Part shown: positions 16,920 through 24,117 of the stretch, in pieces
Numbering within the stretch: position 1 is the stretch's first letter
Layout of the letters: the number at the start of each line of letters is the position of its first letter
NCBI GenBank assembly: GCA_021792135.1
Contig: JAJYVF010000011.1
Coordinates: 62,001-126,000 of the forward strand
Length of the DNA: 64,000 bases
From: Acidobacteriota bacterium
GTDB lineage: Bacteria > Acidobacteriota > Terriglobia > Terriglobales > Acidobacteriaceae
Direction of reading: 5' to 3'
The notes under the pieces: generated by a model
The model's database searches: none
What the model saw: the letters and a program-made list of their open reading frames with translations, nothing else
What the model was told of the DNA's origin: nothing
Position numbers and translations under genes: made by a program

Positions 16920-17009
16920 TTGGAAATCCTGGCGATTGTCAGCTTCACGGTGATTTTCCTCGGCAGCATTATCTGGGCGACGAGCAGGAAGGCGGAGACC
17001 CACCACTGA
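16920..17009 (+). CDS. Possible 29-residue single-pass membrane peptide
   Basis: A short frame starting at a TTG (an in-frame TTG also lies at 16914), with AAGGAG seven bases upstream of 16920. It encodes MEILAIVSFTVIFLGSIIWA followed by a basic, polar tail ending in HH. This is one predicted membrane helix (residues 3-20) with positive residues after it, so probably N-out/C-in. No family is recognised. The strong ribosome-binding site and clean hydrophobic profile argue that it is real; the rare start codon and small size argue for caution. Confidence 0.4.
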   Translation: MEILAIVSFTVIFLGSIIWATSRKAETHH

Positions 17010-17295
17010 GACCTTCCCGCACGGCCCACGAGATGCTATGATTTTTCATATCCCCTGACAGCTTTCCAGAGAGCGCGGAATGCGAACGGATGGAACTGCG
17101 GCGAAGGCCCTGCTGTGCAGGTTCGATATCTGGCTGGAAACGCTGGAGATAATGGATTAGCGGAATTTCTTCGGGTGCGGAGGCGGGTGGCAGTCCGCTT
17201 GCACCACGATTGGGAAACGGGAATTTCATGCCCCCAGGAAGTCTCTGCTGCCCGGAATCCGCAGGGGTGTTCTTTACAGCGGTGTCTGATTCCGC
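17010..17295. other. Leader region upstream of the histidine-kinase operon
   Basis: This 286-bp spacer contains a sigma-54-type promoter (17188-17203, listed separately) about 90 bp before the kinase ATG. No other gene is supported. Upstream activator sites for an NtrC-type protein would be expected at 17010-17150, but I cannot name a specific palindrome. Confidence 0.5.
17188..17203 (+). promoter_or_regulatory. Sigma-54 (-24/-12) promoter
   Basis: TGGCAGTCCGCTTGCA matches the consensus TGGCAC-N5-TTGCW at all but one defined position, and the GG and GC dinucleotides are exactly 10 bases apart as required. It faces the kinase and NtrC-like regulator genes, which suggests the two-component system drives its own sigma-54 transcription. 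Confidence 0.7.
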
Positions 17296-20160
17296 ATGGA
17301 GAGGTCGTTCCAAACCCGCATCACCGCAGTTCTGCTGGCGCTCTTTACCGGAGCGGCAGTGGCGTGCGCGGGGTTCAATCTGGCCCAGGAGAGCCGGTTT
17401 TTTGCCCCTTCCGATGGGGTCTGGTGGACGGAAGCTTCCGGCGGGCTGAAGGCGGAGCGGGTTCCGCATAACACGCCGGGTGAGAGAGCAGGGATCAAGG
17501 CCGGCGACCTGCTGGTGGCCGCCAACAACGTGCCGACGCCGCAGGCGGCCTCGCTGATGCGGCAGATCTGGCGGACCGGCGCCTACAACATCATTCATTA
17601 CACGCTGGTGCGGCACGGAATCCGGCTGCCGGATGTGCAGGTGGATCTGGATGCGCAGGACCGCAGCATCAATCAGGGCTTCCGGCTGATCGCGCTGGTC
17701 TACCTGGGCATTGGGCTCTACGTGCTGCTGCGGCGCTGGACGGCGCCGCATTCGACCCACTTCTACATTTTTTGCCTGGTCTCGTTTGTCCTCTACTCGT
17801 TCTGGTACACGGGCAAGTTCAACGAGTTTGACTGGATTGTCTTCTGGGGCGGGATCGGAGCCAACGCGCTGCAGCCGGCGCTGTTCCTGCATTTCGCCGA
17901 GGCGTTTTCGGCCGAGCGGCGGCGGGGCCGCGCCTGGCTGGTGACGCTGACCTATCTGCCCGGAGTGCTGCTGGTCAGCCTGCAGGTGCTGGCCATGCAG
18001 ATGTGGTCGGCAACCGAGGTGCTGCGGCATCGGCTGGATCAGGTAGCGACGGGGTATCAGGCGCTGTTTTATCTGCTGGCCGGCATGGTGTTCTACATGC
18101 ACTACCGCCGCAAGGCGGCTCCGCTGGAACGGCAGCAGCTGCTCTGGCTGACGCGCGGCACCGCGCTGGCGGTGCTGCCCTTCACGCTGCTCTATGCCAT
18201 TCCGTACATGGCCGACATCGCCATGCCGGATGCGGTGACGAAGGTTGCGGGCATCTGCATGGTGTTCCTGCCGCTGACCTTCAGCTGGGCCATCGTGCGT
18301 TACCGTATGATGGACGTCGACCTCATCTTCAAGCGTGGCGTGACCTACACGCTGGCCACGGCGGCGCTGGTGGGGCTCTACTTCGCGCTGGTGGCGGTGG
18401 CGGCGGAGGTGGTGAACAAACACCTGCCCAGCGCCGGGGTGTGGGGCGTGTTCGCGGCGATCATCATCACCGCGCTGCTCTTCGATCCGCTGAAGCGGGC
18501 GATTCAGGGGCAGGTGGACCGCGTCTTCGACCGGCAGAGCTACGACTACCGGACGACGCTGATCGACTTCGGGCGGGGGCTGAGCTCGTTCACCGATCTG
18601 GATGCGCTGCTGCACGCGATTGTGGACCGGCTGCCGCGGACGCTGCTGGTGGAGCGGGTGGCGGTATTTGTTTCCGACGCGCCGGGGAAGTACGCGCTGG
18701 CCGCACAGCATGGACTGCCGCCGGCGATTGCCGGAGCGGGGCTGGATCTGGGGTTCTTCGACTTTGACCGGCCGGGCGCGGGGACGCACATGTTCCTTGA
18801 AAACCCGCAGCAGACTCTGCATCTGAAGCCGGCCGAGCAGAGGACGGTGGCGCTCCTCGACATGAACTACTTCCTGCCCTGCCGGGTGGGGGTGCCCGGA
18901 GCGCGCGACTGGCAGATGCAGGACCGCACCATCGCGGTGATCGGCCTGGGGCGGCGCGAGGGCGGCGAATTCCTGTCGAGCGAGGATATGGAGCTGCTCG
19001 AGTCGCTGGCCGGGTATATCGGGATTGCGCTCCAGAATGCGCGGCTGTACGCCAGCCTCGAAGAGAAGATCGCGGAGTACGAGCGGCTGAAGGAGTTCAA
19101 CGAGAACATCGTCGAGTCGATCAATGTGGGGATTCTGGCGGTCGATCCGGAGGAGCGGATCGAGAGCTGGAATTCGCAGATGGAAGTGATGTTCGCGCTG
19201 GCCAGGAAAGAGGCGCTGCACCAGCCTCTGGAGGCGGTTTTCCCGCGGACGCTGGTAGAGGAGTTCCGGCGGGTGAAGGATCAGCCCGGCGTGCACAACC
19301 TGTATAAGTTCCGCCTGGAGACGCGGGCGGAAGAGACGCGCATCGCGAATATCGCGATTGCGCCGCTGGTTTCGCGGGATTTCCGGACGGTGGGGCGGAT
19401 CATCCTGGTCGACGACATCACCGATCAGACAGAGATGGAAGGCCAGCTGGCGCAGGCGGAGAAGCTGTCGTCCATCGGGCTGCTGGCCGCCGGCGTGGCG
19501 CACGAGGTGAATACTCCGCTGGCGGTGATTTCCTCCTATGCGCAGATGCTTTTAAGGCAGGTCAAGGGCGATGAGCGGCTGGGGCCGCTGCTCGAAAAGA
19601 TCACGCAGCAGACCTTCCGCGCTTCGGAGATCGTGAACGGGCTGCTGAATTTCTCGCGCACCAGCGGGGCGGAATATCGCGAGACGGATGTGAACGCGAT
19701 CATTCGCGATACGCTGACGCTGCTGGAGCATCAGTTCAAGACTTCGCAGATCACCGTGGAGACCAACCTCATGCCCGGGCTTCCGCCCATCATGGGCAAC
19801 GCGGGCAAGCTGCAGCAGGTCTTTCTCAACCTGTTTTTGAACGCGAAGGATGCGATGGCCGGGGCGAGCGAGCAGCGCTGGCTGAGGATCGCCACGGAAG
19901 TCAATGGGCACGTCAGCATTTCCATCGCCGACAGCGGATCGGGGATTGCGCCGGAGCATCTGCGGCGCATCTACGATCCCTTCTTCACGACCAAGACGGC
20001 GCGGAGGGACGGACATCCGCGCGGGACGGGCCTGGGGCTGGCGGTGACCTATGGAATTATTCAGGAACACTCGGGGAAGATTCACGTGGAGAGCCAGCCA
20101 GGACAGGGTACGACTTTTTATCTGGAGTTTCCGTTACTGAGGAAGCCGGCGCATGTCTGA
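17296..20160 (+). CDS. Membrane sensor histidine kinase (PDZ-7TM-GAF-PAS-HisKA-HATPase)
   Basis: A 954-residue sensor kinase. Order seen: first membrane helix (about residues 10-30); PDZ-like segment NTPGERAGIKAGDLLVAANN (about 56-75); a block of about seven hydrophobic helices (about 120-345); GAF-like domain (about 430-590, DALLHAIVDRLPRTLLVERV, ending IGIALQNARLY); PAS domain (about 605-710, NIVESINVGILAVDPEERIE); HisKA with phospho-acceptor His736 in GVAHEVNTPLAVISS; and HATPase motifs NLFLNAKDAM (N box), DSGSGIAPEH (G1), FFTTK and GTGLGLAV. It resembles NtrB/AtoS-like kinases. The stop overlaps the regulator start by 8 bp, so the partner is certain by context. The ligand is unknown; PDZ plus 7TM suggests envelope sensing. 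Confidence 0.9.
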   Translation: MERSFQTRITAVLLALFTGAAVACAGFNLAQESRFFAPSDGVWWTEASGGLKAERVPHNTPGERAGIKAGDLLVAANNVPTPQAASLMRQIWRTGAYNIIHYTLVRHGIRLPDVQVDLDAQDRSINQGFRLIALVYLGIGLYVLLRRWTAPHSTHFYIFCLVSFVLYSFWYTGKFNEFDWIVFWGGIGANALQPALFLHFAEAFSAERRRGRAWLVTLTYLPGVLLVSLQVLAMQMWSATEVLRHRLDQVATGYQALFYLLAGMVFYMHYRRKAAPLERQQLLWLTRGTALAVLPFTLLYAIPYMADIAMPDAVTKVAGICMVFLPLTFSWAIVRYRMMDVDLIFKRGVTYTLATAALVGLYFALVAVAAEVVNKHLPSAGVWGVFAAIIITALLFDPLKRAIQGQVDRVFDRQSYDYRTTLIDFGRGLSSFTDLDALLHAIVDRLPRTLLVERVAVFVSDAPGKYALAAQHGLPPAIAGAGLDLGFFDFDRPGAGTHMFLENPQQTLHLKPAEQRTVALLDMNYFLPCRVGVPGARDWQMQDRTIAVIGLGRREGGEFLSSEDMELLESLAGYIGIALQNARLYASLEEKIAEYERLKEFNENIVESINVGILAVDPEERIESWNSQMEVMFALARKEALHQPLEAVFPRTLVEEFRRVKDQPGVHNLYKFRLETRAEETRIANIAIAPLVSRDFRTVGRIILVDDITDQTEMEGQLAQAEKLSSIGLLAAGVAHEVNTPLAVISSYAQMLLRQVKGDERLGPLLEKITQQTFRASEIVNGLLNFSRTSGAEYRETDVNAIIRDTLTLLEHQFKTSQITVETNLMPGLPPIMGNAGKLQQVFLNLFLNAKDAMAGASEQRWLRIATEVNGHVSISIADSGSGIAPEHLRRIYDPFFTTKTARRDGHPRGTGLGLAVTYGIIQEHSGKIHVESQPGQGTTFYLEFPLLRKPAHV

Positions 20161-21589
20161 AGGAACGGTTGCAGCTCCGGCAAATTCTCAGTCTGCGGGT
20201 TCGGAAGCCACTCAGAGAATTCTGATCATCGATGACGAGGCGGCCATCCGCGAGTCGCTGGAGACCCTGCTGTCGCTCGAAGGCTATGCCGTCGAGACGG
20301 CGGAAAACGGCGAGCAGGGACTGGAGCGCATTGCGGAACAGCCCTTCGACCTGGTGCTGCTGGATCTGGCGCTGCCCGGGCGCAACGGGATCGAGATTCT
20401 CGCAACGATTCGCCAGCGGCACGAATCGCTGCCGGTAATCATGATCACCGCCTACGGCACGGTGAGCAACGTCGTGGATGCGATCCGCGGCGGCGCGCAG
20501 AATTTCATCCAGAAACCATGGGATAACGAGAAGCTGCTGGCGGATATCCGCGCGGCCATCGCGCGTTACCGGACGGAAGAAGAAAACATCCAGCTCAAGC
20601 GGGCGCTGCGCCAGCGCTACAACTTCCCCAACATTGTGGGGAAGAGCGAGGCGATGCTGCGCATCTTCGATCTGGTGGCGCAGGTGGCGCCGACGCGGTC
20701 GACGGTACTGATCCAGGGCGAGAGCGGCACGGGCAAGGAGCTGATCGCCAAGGCGTTGCACGCCAACTCGCCCCGCAGGGACAGACCGTTCGTGCCGGTG
20801 AATACCGGGGCGATGCCGACGGATCTGCTGGAGTCAACGCTCTTCGGGCATGTAAAGGGCGCCTTTACCTCGGCGATCGCCGCCAAGAAGGGCCTTTTTG
20901 AGATCGCCAACGGCGGGACGCTCTTCCTGGACGAGATCGCCACGATGGGGATGGATACGCAGGCGAAGATCCTGCGCGTGCTGCAGGACCGCCGCTTTAT
21001 GCACCTGGGCGGGGTGCAGGAGATCCAGGTGGACGTGCGGATCATTGCGGCCACCAATGTGGATCTGCGCCAGGCGGTGCGGGAAGGCAAGTTCCGCGAG
21101 GATCTGTATTACCGGCTGAACGTGATTGCCATCGAGCTGCCTCCGCTGCGCAGCCGGCGCGAGGATATTCCGGCGCTGGCGATGCACTTTCTGAAGAGGT
21201 ACGCGGAAGAGAACGGGCTGCCGGTGCGGTCAATTTCGCCCGATGCGATGCGGGCCCTGGCGGACTACGAGTGGCCGGGGAATGTGCGCGAACTCGAAAA
21301 CGTGATCGAGCGCGGTGTGGTGCTGTCATCGGGCACGACGATCGGCGCGGACCTGCTGCCGGGGCATCTGACGGGCGCAAGCTACTCGACCAGCCTGCTG
21401 GAACACAGTCCGAATGCTTCGCTGTTCGACATCATGGAGGATATCGAGCGGCGGATCATCGTCGACAAGCTGGAGCGCTGCAACGGCAATCAGACGGAGG
21501 CTGCGGAGCAGTTCCGGATCCCGCTCTCGACACTCAACCAGAAGATCAAGCGGCTCAATATCGAGATTCGCAAGCGCGCGCGGGAATAA
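20153..21589 (+). CDS. NtrC-family sigma-54-dependent response regulator
   Basis: A 478-residue three-domain regulator. The receiver (residues 22-135) has the acidic pair IIDDE and phospho-acceptor Asp71 in LVLLDLALPG. The AAA+ domain (about 155-385) has Walker A GESGTGKE, Walker B GGTLFLDEIA and the arginine-finger region RFREDLYYRLNV. The C-terminal Fis-type helix-turn-helix is NQTEAAEQFRIPLSTLNQKI (about 450-470). The sigma-54-contact loop reads GAFTSA instead of GAFTGA (bases 20858-20875). It overlaps the upstream kinase gene and is preceded by a sigma-54 promoter, so positive autoregulation is likely. The targets are unknown. Confidence 0.93.
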   Translation: MSEGTVAAPANSQSAGSEATQRILIIDDEAAIRESLETLLSLEGYAVETAENGEQGLERIAEQPFDLVLLDLALPGRNGIEILATIRQRHESLPVIMITAYGTVSNVVDAIRGGAQNFIQKPWDNEKLLADIRAAIARYRTEEENIQLKRALRQRYNFPNIVGKSEAMLRIFDLVAQVAPTRSTVLIQGESGTGKELIAKALHANSPRRDRPFVPVNTGAMPTDLLESTLFGHVKGAFTSAIAAKKGLFEIANGGTLFLDEIATMGMDTQAKILRVLQDRRFMHLGGVQEIQVDVRIIAATNVDLRQAVREGKFREDLYYRLNVIAIELPPLRSRREDIPALAMHFLKRYAEENGLPVRSISPDAMRALADYEWPGNVRELENVIERGVVLSSGTTIGADLLPGHLTGASYSTSLLEHSPNASLFDIMEDIERRIIVDKLERCNGNQTEAAEQFRIPLSTLNQKIKRLNIEIRKRARE

Positions 21590-22361: not shown

Positions 22362-22510
22362 GGCGCAACTCCTCAGAAGGGATTGTACGGGTGCCGGGTC
22401 CGACTGCCGGGGGTGTGCTACGCTCAGGTTTCGGAGTGGGTCGAAGCGGCCTTCCGGTTGATGATTCGCCGAAACGGGTTGCGCATCCAATCCGGCAGTA
22501 CACGATAGCT

Positions 22511-23290
22511 ATGCCTTTAGCGACGATCGATGCAGCGGCGAAGCGGGGCGTTCTGGCGGTGCAGCAGTACGCTGCGATGTCGGGCCGAGCGATGGGGAAT
22601 CTCTTTCGCAGGCCGTTTTACCGCTCGGACGTCTTCCTGCAGGCCGACATTATCGGGGTCGGATCTCTGCCGATTGTGATCCTGACCGGGTTTTTCCTGG
22701 GCGGGGTGCTGGCCCTGCAGTCGTCCTCGACGCTGACGCAGTTTGGTGCGACGGCGTACACCGGGCAGCTGGTCAGCTTCTCGATGATCAAGGAGATCGG
22801 GCCGGTGGTGACGGCGCTGATGGTTTCGGGGCGCAACGCTTCCGGCATGGCCAGCGAACTGGGGTCGATGATGGTGACTGAGCAGATCGACGCCATGCGG
22901 GCGCTCGGGACCGACCCGCTGAAAAAGCTCGTCATGCCGCGCATCGTGGCGACCGTCGTGATGCTCTTTTTCCTGGTGATCCTGTCGGACATGGTGGGCA
23001 TCTTCGGCGGGGGCTTCGTTTCGGTCGTCATGCTCGGCCAGGATGGCTCCCAGTACTTCCACACCGCCTATCAGTCGCTGGAGTTTCCGGACGTTCTGCA
23101 GGGGCTGGTGAAGCCGGTGTTCTTCGGGTTCATCATTGCAAGCATCGGCTGCTTCTACGGCATGAAGACGCGCGGAGGCACGCAGGGCGTGGGACGGTCG
23201 ACGACGCAGGCGGTGGTGGTGTCGTCGATCCTGATCATCGTGACAGACTTCCTGATCAGCCGATTCCTCATCGGCATCTTCGGGCGGTGA
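22511..23290 (+). CDS. mlaE: MlaE-family ABC transporter permease
   Basis: A 259-residue integral membrane permease of the MlaE/YrbE family, which moves phospholipid between membranes with an MlaF ATPase and an MCE protein. The hydrophobic segments and the conserved stretches SMIKEIGPVVTALMVSGRNA and ASELGSMMVTEQIDAMRALG are diagnostic. The ATG at 22511 has no strong ribosome-binding site but is where family similarity begins. The GTG start of the ATPase gene overlaps its stop (GTGA). No MCE (MlaD) gene follows. Confidence 0.93.
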   Translation: MPLATIDAAAKRGVLAVQQYAAMSGRAMGNLFRRPFYRSDVFLQADIIGVGSLPIVILTGFFLGGVLALQSSSTLTQFGATAYTGQLVSFSMIKEIGPVVTALMVSGRNASGMASELGSMMVTEQIDAMRALGTDPLKKLVMPRIVATVVMLFFLVILSDMVGIFGGGFVSVVMLGQDGSQYFHTAYQSLEFPDVLQGLVKPVFFGFIIASIGCFYGMKTRGGTQGVGRSTTQAVVVSSILIIVTDFLISRFLIGIFGR

Positions 23291-24117
23291 GCGCCGTGGG
23301 CGCAAACGGCGCGACGGCCCCCGATGCGGACGAGCCGGTGGTGGTGTTCGACGATGTGTCGATCGGCTTCGACCGCAAGCCGGTGCTCGAGAACATTTCC
23401 TTCCGGATTCGCCGCGGAGAGACGCGGATCCTGCTGGGTCCGGCAGGCGTGGGCAAGAGCGTACTGCTCAAGCTGACCAATGGGCTGCTGCGCCCGGACT
23501 CGGGCCGGATTTTCGTCTTCGGCAACGAGATCAGCGCCATGCGCGAGCAGGACCTCTTCGAGATTCGCGGGGCGATCGGAACCGTGTTTCAGGAGGGCGC
23601 GCTCTTCGATTCGCTCACCGTACGGGACAACGTGGGCTACCGCCTGCTCGAGGAGCATCTCTCCGAGGAGGAGACTACCCGGCGCGTGACCGAGGCACTG
23701 CGCTTTGTCGAGCTCGAGCAGACGCTGGACAAGTTTCCTTCGGAGCTTTCGGGCGGAATGCGGCGGCGCGTGGCGATTGCGCGAGCCATTGTTACGAATC
23801 CCAAACTGATTCTGTACGATTCGCCAACCGGAGGGCTCGACCCCATCACGTCGACTACGATCATCGAACTGGTGATGAAGCAGCGGGACGTCTCGCATAC
23901 GAGTTCGCTGGTCATAACCCACCGGCTGCAGGATGCCTTTGTGCTGGCCACCCACCATTTCAGCCGGGAGAAGAACGGGATGTTGCCGCTGCCGGCAGGG
24001 GAGACCGATTCGCACACCAGCTTCCTTCTGCTGCACCAGGGGCGGCTGGCGTTCGACGGCACGACCGCAGAACTGGTGCACTCGGAGGACCCCTTTATCC
24101 GGGAGTACATCAGTTGA
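23287..24117 (+). CDS. mlaF: MlaF-family ABC transporter ATP-binding protein
   Basis: A 276-residue ATPase, partner of the overlapping mlaE gene. Walker A is GPAGVGKSVLLK (about residues 54-62), the Q-loop VFQEGALFDSLTV, the signature ELSGGMRRRVAIARA and the H-loop VITHRLQDAF. Walker B reads LILYDSPTGGLDP: the catalytic glutamate that normally follows the aspartate is a serine here (codon TCG). This could lower or alter ATP hydrolysis, or be compensated elsewhere. A roughly 45-residue C-terminal segment (EKNGMLPLPAGETDSHTSFL) precedes the final strand and is longer than in E. coli MlaF. Confidence 0.9.
   Translation: MSAVGANGATAPDADEPVVVFDDVSIGFDRKPVLENISFRIRRGETRILLGPAGVGKSVLLKLTNGLLRPDSGRIFVFGNEISAMREQDLFEIRGAIGTVFQEGALFDSLTVRDNVGYRLLEEHLSEEETTRRVTEALRFVELEQTLDKFPSELSGGMRRRVAIARAIVTNPKLILYDSPTGGLDPITSTTIIELVMKQRDVSHTSSLVITHRLQDAFVLATHHFSREKNGMLPLPAGETDSHTSFLLLHQGRLAFDGTTAELVHSEDPFIREYIS

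Follow-up and report, generated by a model that had tools for sequence, protein, structure and literature searches.

A conserved sigma-54 promoter and a presumed upstream enhancer at a kinase/NtrC-type regulator operon of Acidobacteriaceae

Autoregulated two-gene operons that encode a kinase and its sigma-54 activator are already known, as the sections of the literature cited here document. Nla28S/Nla28 of Myxococcus xanthus is a kinase/NtrC-type operon with a sigma-54 promoter, and its regulator is involved in autoregulation (PMC9765219). For ZraS/ZraR, autoregulation of the encoding operon is likewise stated (PMC12316311). In Desulfovibrio, certain response regulators have binding sites in front of the gene or operon that encodes them (PMC3333781); the site predicted for DVU2275 is an AT-rich palindrome, and autoregulation has been proposed for DVU1949 (PMC3333781, PMC4641369). 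The cited section of PMC3333781 mentions that one Desulfovibrio regulator has an ortholog in Acidobacterium capsulatum, but does not describe the circuit presented below. The string 'Acidobacter' does not occur in the main text of the sigma-54 survey PMC12316311, and a search of the open-licence literature returned, among the matches listed, no experimental study of a sigma-54 promoter in Acidobacteria.

In this report, we analyzed a locus situated in a 64-kb stretch of DNA from a soil Acidobacterium, designated as a whole the window, and compared it with its counterparts in related genomes. Our preferred reading, which we hold to be probable, is that the locus is a positively autoregulated two-component operon. 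Like Nla28S/Nla28, it pairs the gene of a membrane-bound kinase with that of an enhancer-binding regulator of NtrC type, both behind a sigma-54 promoter; as far as the cited account goes, Nla28 has many other targets, with GC-rich 8-mer half-sites, whereas the presumed enhancer found here is AT-rich and resides almost only at its own operon. With ZraS/ZraR, in the part of the account cited, the locus shares the association of a kinase with an NtrC-type regulator, but both proteins fall short of the named models: the regulator has 400 bits where ZraR requires 760, and the kinase has 166 where ZraS requires 479. The enhancer-binding regulators of Desulfovibrio, again in the sections cited, are different regulators controlling different genes, and their likeness to the present case lies in own-gene binding, as presumed here, and in the AT-rich palindrome. 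Set beside these systems, the control proposed here is fairly ordinary. What is new is the palindrome TATGATTTTTCATA, 151 bp upstream of the promoter; the near-privacy of this presumed enhancer to the operon is, as judged from genome comparison, the least ordinary feature of the locus. The study locates the promoter, the presumed enhancer and the activator of one sigma-54 circuit in Acidobacteriaceae.

The kinase and regulator genes

The first-pass annotation had assigned the promoter to a kinase/NtrC-type operon lying downstream of it, and the content of the two genes agrees with this description. The first gene (17296-20160, + strand) encodes a sensor histidine kinase of 954 aa, delimited as an open reading frame and examined by Pfam, motif reading and hydropathy. 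It has GAF, PAS, HisKA and HATPase_c domains in Pfam and several hydrophobic segments by hydropathy, and His736 of HisKA is in place; near the N terminus, a PDZ match was weak and below the Pfam cut-off. The second gene (20153-21589, + strand), which overlaps the first by 8 bases, encodes an NtrC-type response regulator of 478 aa, recognized from its open reading frame, Pfam matches, motifs and relatives of solved structure. Its receiver (PF00072), sigma-54 interaction AAA+ domain (PF00158) and Fis-type HTH (PF02954) all score over their cut-offs, and Asp71 of the receiver and the Walker motifs are in place. In the genome as a whole, 15 Sigma54_activat matches were over the cut-off, and 10 of them, that of the operon's own regulator included, exceeded 200 bits.

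Identity with one of the named equivalogs AtoS/AtoC, NtrB/NtrC, PrsK/PrsR or ZraS/ZraR was considered and rejected, as scores fell below the curated NCBIfam cut-offs: the regulator reached 474.6 against 714 for AtoC, 451 against 558.6 for NtrC and 388.6 against 502.6 for the PrsR-type model. None of the best 25 models listed in NCBIfam was at its cut-off, for either the kinase or the regulator.

The GAFTGA loop that contacts sigma-54 is the defining motif of NtrC-type activators. In the present regulator, this loop (20858-20875, + strand) reads GAFTSA, one residue off GAFTGA, while three aligned relatives of solved structure have GAFTGA. All 24 family regulators that were read carry GAFTSA, as do seven loci of further families; GAFTGA is found at seven loci, all of the sister family f2, and at one locus the loop motif was not found. 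The uniformity of GAFTSA in the family (24/24), together with GAFTGA at the seven f2 loci, indicates a stable variant. By this comparison of sequences, the sigma-54 contact motif occurs naturally in the variant form GAFTSA, which we count, as a caution, against the preferred reading. A literature search found no paper containing both strings, GAFTSA and GAFTGA.

The promoter and its conservation

The putative promoter, TGGCAGTCCGCTTGCA, occupies positions 17188-17203 on the + strand. It had been described as a -24/-12 element with exact spacing and near-consensus bases, and the sequence at that place is in fact identical to TGGCA-N6-TTGCW at all 10 specified positions, with canonical spacing. 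From its end to the ATG of the kinase (17296) there are 92 bases. When the C of TTGC is taken as -12, transcription is predicted to start at about 17214, one base away from the position of 17215 given in the first-pass annotation.

In a scan of the window with TGGCA-N6-TTGCW, this was the sole site with zero mismatches; sites with up to two mismatches showed no excess (83 observed versus 89 expected). A genome-wide scan had been proposed as a check. Carried out with the consensus pattern, it gave a total close to background: 11 exact sites in the 5.1 Mb genome versus 9 for the reversed pattern. The motif by itself is therefore no better than chance, its place and conservation being what sets it apart, and the genome-wide count was rejected as evidence. 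Pooled over 10 relatives, exact sites numbered 249 versus 132 in the reversed control; one relative (G026) had no excess, with 30 in each. The presence of rpoN, proposed as a further check, was confirmed by one Sigma54_DBD match in the genome, on G000:C8 (E 4.5e-58).

Conservation was assessed at two sets of related loci. All 61 genomes examined by protein search contained relatives of the kinase, the match in G007 (E 4.9e-36) being no closer than that of paralogs. From these 61 genomes 48 loci were drawn, the other 13 having a kinase start or upstream DNA that was missing, cut or not retrieved; the 48 include the window's own locus and some near duplicates (L047, L048 and L049, with one common site). 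Within the 250 bp upstream of the kinase match, a site identical at 9/10 or 10/10 positions was present on the coding strand at 38 of the 48 loci (23 exact and 15 at 9/10), against at most 2/48 in controls with spacers of 3, 4, 5, 7, 8 or 9, with the opposite strand or with the reversed pattern, and against a mean of 0.55/48 in mononucleotide shuffles. Broken down by group, sites of 9/10 or better were found at 8/8 loci of the genus (all exact), at 19/21 in the rest of the family and at 11/19 in other families of the order and class. Ten of the 48 loci are without a 9/10 site, and eight of these 10 lie outside the family, a point counted against the preferred reading.

The second set, which came from a search of genome records with the regulator protein, partly overlaps the first. 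Of its 80 loci, 60 were usable; 18 had no kinase start that could be found and two had less than 200 bp upstream. Here 55 of 60 loci carried a 9/10 or 10/10 site (13 exact), controls reached at most 2/60, and five loci were without a 9/10 site. The site is exact in Silvibacterium bohemicum, Paracidobacterium acidisoli, Acidipila rosea and strain ZG23-2, and matches at 9/10 in Occallatibacter savannae and Terracidiphilus gabretensis. Its presence in named isolates such as S. bohemicum, A. rosea, P. acidisoli and T. gabretensis makes autoregulation and the near-privacy of the enhancer directly testable. Being conserved at the correct spacing only, in both locus sets, and belonging to a genome with rpoN, TGGCAGTCCGCTTGCA is strongly supported by these comparisons as the sigma-54 promoter that had been claimed.

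A side observation concerns one locus, L018 of G001, where two exact sigma-54 sites, 19 bp apart, precede the same kinase gene.

The upstream palindrome

A search for motifs in the 200 bp preceding the promoters brought out an AT-rich dyad, which in the window is the palindrome CTATGATTTTTCATAT (17036-17051), with its core TATGATTTTTCATA at 17037-17050. The search set excluded the near duplicates L015, L016 and L019 and the loci lacking the site; at width 16 the log-likelihood was 166 versus 56 in the control, which consisted of one mononucleotide shuffle per width and ignores relatedness. An automatic listing of inverted repeats returned many unrelated repeats. Besides the motif search, the spacing of the palindrome and its near-privacy led us to regard it as a presumed enhancer.

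As to spacing, the distance from TATG to TGG was determined in 11 genomes, that is, 10 genomes of the genus and G028 of a neighboring genus. It is 151 bp in seven of them, 152 bp in two, 153 bp in one and 144 bp in one, and the DNA between palindrome and promoter has a mean aligned identity of 42% in these 11 genomes. Of the two remaining genus genomes, G007 has no ortholog of the kinase or the regulator, its best regulator match being 43% identical, and in G009 the kinase was found only as a C-terminal part.

As to near-privacy, the strict pattern TATGRNNTTYCATA has 11 matches in 12 genus genomes, nine at the operon and two elsewhere, and a control pattern has one; the pattern misses G006, which has a one-base variant of the palindrome. 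Because TATGRNNTTYCATA was designed from the sites that it finds, the informative part of this result is the scarcity of matches elsewhere. The form seen in other genera is more degenerate and lies closer to the promoter, at a distance of about 95 bp and, in some cases, of about 115 bp as well. This departure, despite a nearly identical HTH, is counted against the preferred reading: the family regulators read to their end have an almost invariant HTH region (PLSTLNQKIKRLNIE), as expected of a conserved target, yet the presumed target changes between genera. A joint enhancer-plus-promoter pattern, built on the non-genus form, had 10 matches in 9 of 120 family genomes. Eight of the 10 fall at the kinase/regulator operon, four of which (in G072, G085, G094 and G142) were unknown when the pattern was designed, and the other two lie elsewhere in G028 and G085. 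Most kinase promoters, among them that of the window, escape this strict pattern, so that it is evidence of how specific the element is but not of how often it occurs. On these comparisons, the palindrome at 17036-17051 is probably the enhancer of the operon's own activator.

Two further elements were noticed in the same region. A small ORF (16920-17009, + strand; TTG start, 29 aa, one hydrophobic stretch and a His-rich end) sits between a divergent TPR gene and the palindrome, and a pattern search found a similar peptide of 28-31 residues upstream of the kinase at 8 of 11 loci. No family was over the cut-off for this peptide, single relatives giving weak matches to FixQ and Psb35. The possibility that the palindrome is a feature of the small ORF was rejected: at the eight loci where the pattern found the ORF (it was not found at the other three), the distance between the two ranges from 27 to 117 bp, against a near-constant distance to the promoter. 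The second element is an extra block of the form TATAATTnTGTAAG, about 19 bases, GACTTAG, lying between element and promoter in many family members outside the genus (L027-L043) and not recognized in the window. This block may represent a sigma-70 promoter that provides basal expression, or else a site for another regulator.

The proposed circuit, its alternatives and further targets

In the circuit that we propose, the membrane kinase would sense a signal and phosphorylate the NtrC-type regulator, as the domains of the two proteins suggest. The regulator would bind the palindrome at 17036-17051 and loop the DNA to the sigma-54 polymerase at 17188-17203, where its AAA+ domain would open the promoter. 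Transcription from about 17214 would then yield more kinase and more regulator, so that the signal would raise the system's own level. It is the status of the palindrome as a probable enhancer that makes autoregulation likely, and we infer that its near-fixed distance and its near-privacy to the operon strengthen this reading.

The alternative that survives best, although we consider it rather unlikely, grants a real sigma-54 promoter but has another enhancer-binding protein read the palindrome, the operon then being a layer in a cascade and not a self-loop. The genome offers candidates, with nine other strong Sigma54_activat matches, and cascades of one bacterial enhancer-binding protein on another do exist, for instance Nla28 acting on actB and nla6 in the cited section of PMC9765219. 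Another activator would, however, be expected to have sites elsewhere too, and the most straightforward account of the near-privacy of the enhancer is that its reader is the operon's own product. Less likely still is the possibility that the palindrome serves a repressor or a bending protein and that the activator uses a site not recognized here. Some relatives do have further inverted repeats between palindrome and promoter, and many outside the genus have the extra conserved block described above; against this stands the palindrome-promoter spacing, which is almost the same in all 11 genomes even though the intervening DNA has diverged, in contrast to the variable distance to the small ORF. 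A chance pairing of two hexamers at TGGCAGTCCGCTTGCA, with no promoter function, would fit the background-level number of exact sites in the genome and the lack of enrichment of near matches in the window, but the element is conserved at orthologous positions, and at the correct spacing alone, in the 48- and 60-locus sets, which makes this very unlikely indeed.

A stronger form of the autoregulated circuit can also be envisaged, which we put forward tentatively and regard as improbable. Throughout the family, the regulator's strong enhancer would be all but confined to the regulator's own promoter, giving a nearly closed self-activating sigma-54 loop that acts as a signal-triggered level switch; its output would pass through weak sites, through downstream MlaE permease/ABC ATPase genes co-transcribed in some relatives, or through the proteins themselves.

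Searches in the genus and in the family found no conserved second target of the regulator. The ORFs downstream of 60 exact sites (36/36 in G022 and 24/27 in G034) gave no BLASTP pair, in a test that is weak: its simple gene finder overlooked even the kinase at L104, and many of the sites are located within ORFs. At 101 exact-site loci, some of them duplicates, an enhancer matrix scored 19.5 in the window and 15.8 in G022 for a median of -0.5; both sites belong to the training set of the matrix, so these two scores are circular. The next score, 10.0, is that of L156 in G034, which precedes the gene of a small protein of unknown family, and 9.3 was obtained at L078, which by its sequence is the G003 kinase promoter and lies outside the training set. 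In the source genome, TATGN6CATA occurs at seven places, and a sigma-54 site of at least 9/10 lies within 350 bp of only two of them, the operon and one on G000:C41. The latter palindrome (L064, G000:C41:102674-102687), the only other strict one of the source genome, is 74 bp from a 9/10 sigma-54 site and lies between M48-protease-like and TonB-receptor-like genes, both named by eye. It was rejected as a second target and is probably due to chance, being without a counterpart among the strict matches in other genus genomes.

In 4 of 10 neighborhoods (L170-L173; Pfam was applied to two of the four), the next genes after the regulator encode an MlaE-type permease and an ABC ATPase and have the same orientation. 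With the first ORF 40-127 bp past the regulator and in the same direction, these genes could be co-transcribed with it. The window has MlaE-type permease and ABC ATPase genes as well (22391-24117), situated beyond a convergent SIMPL-domain gene.
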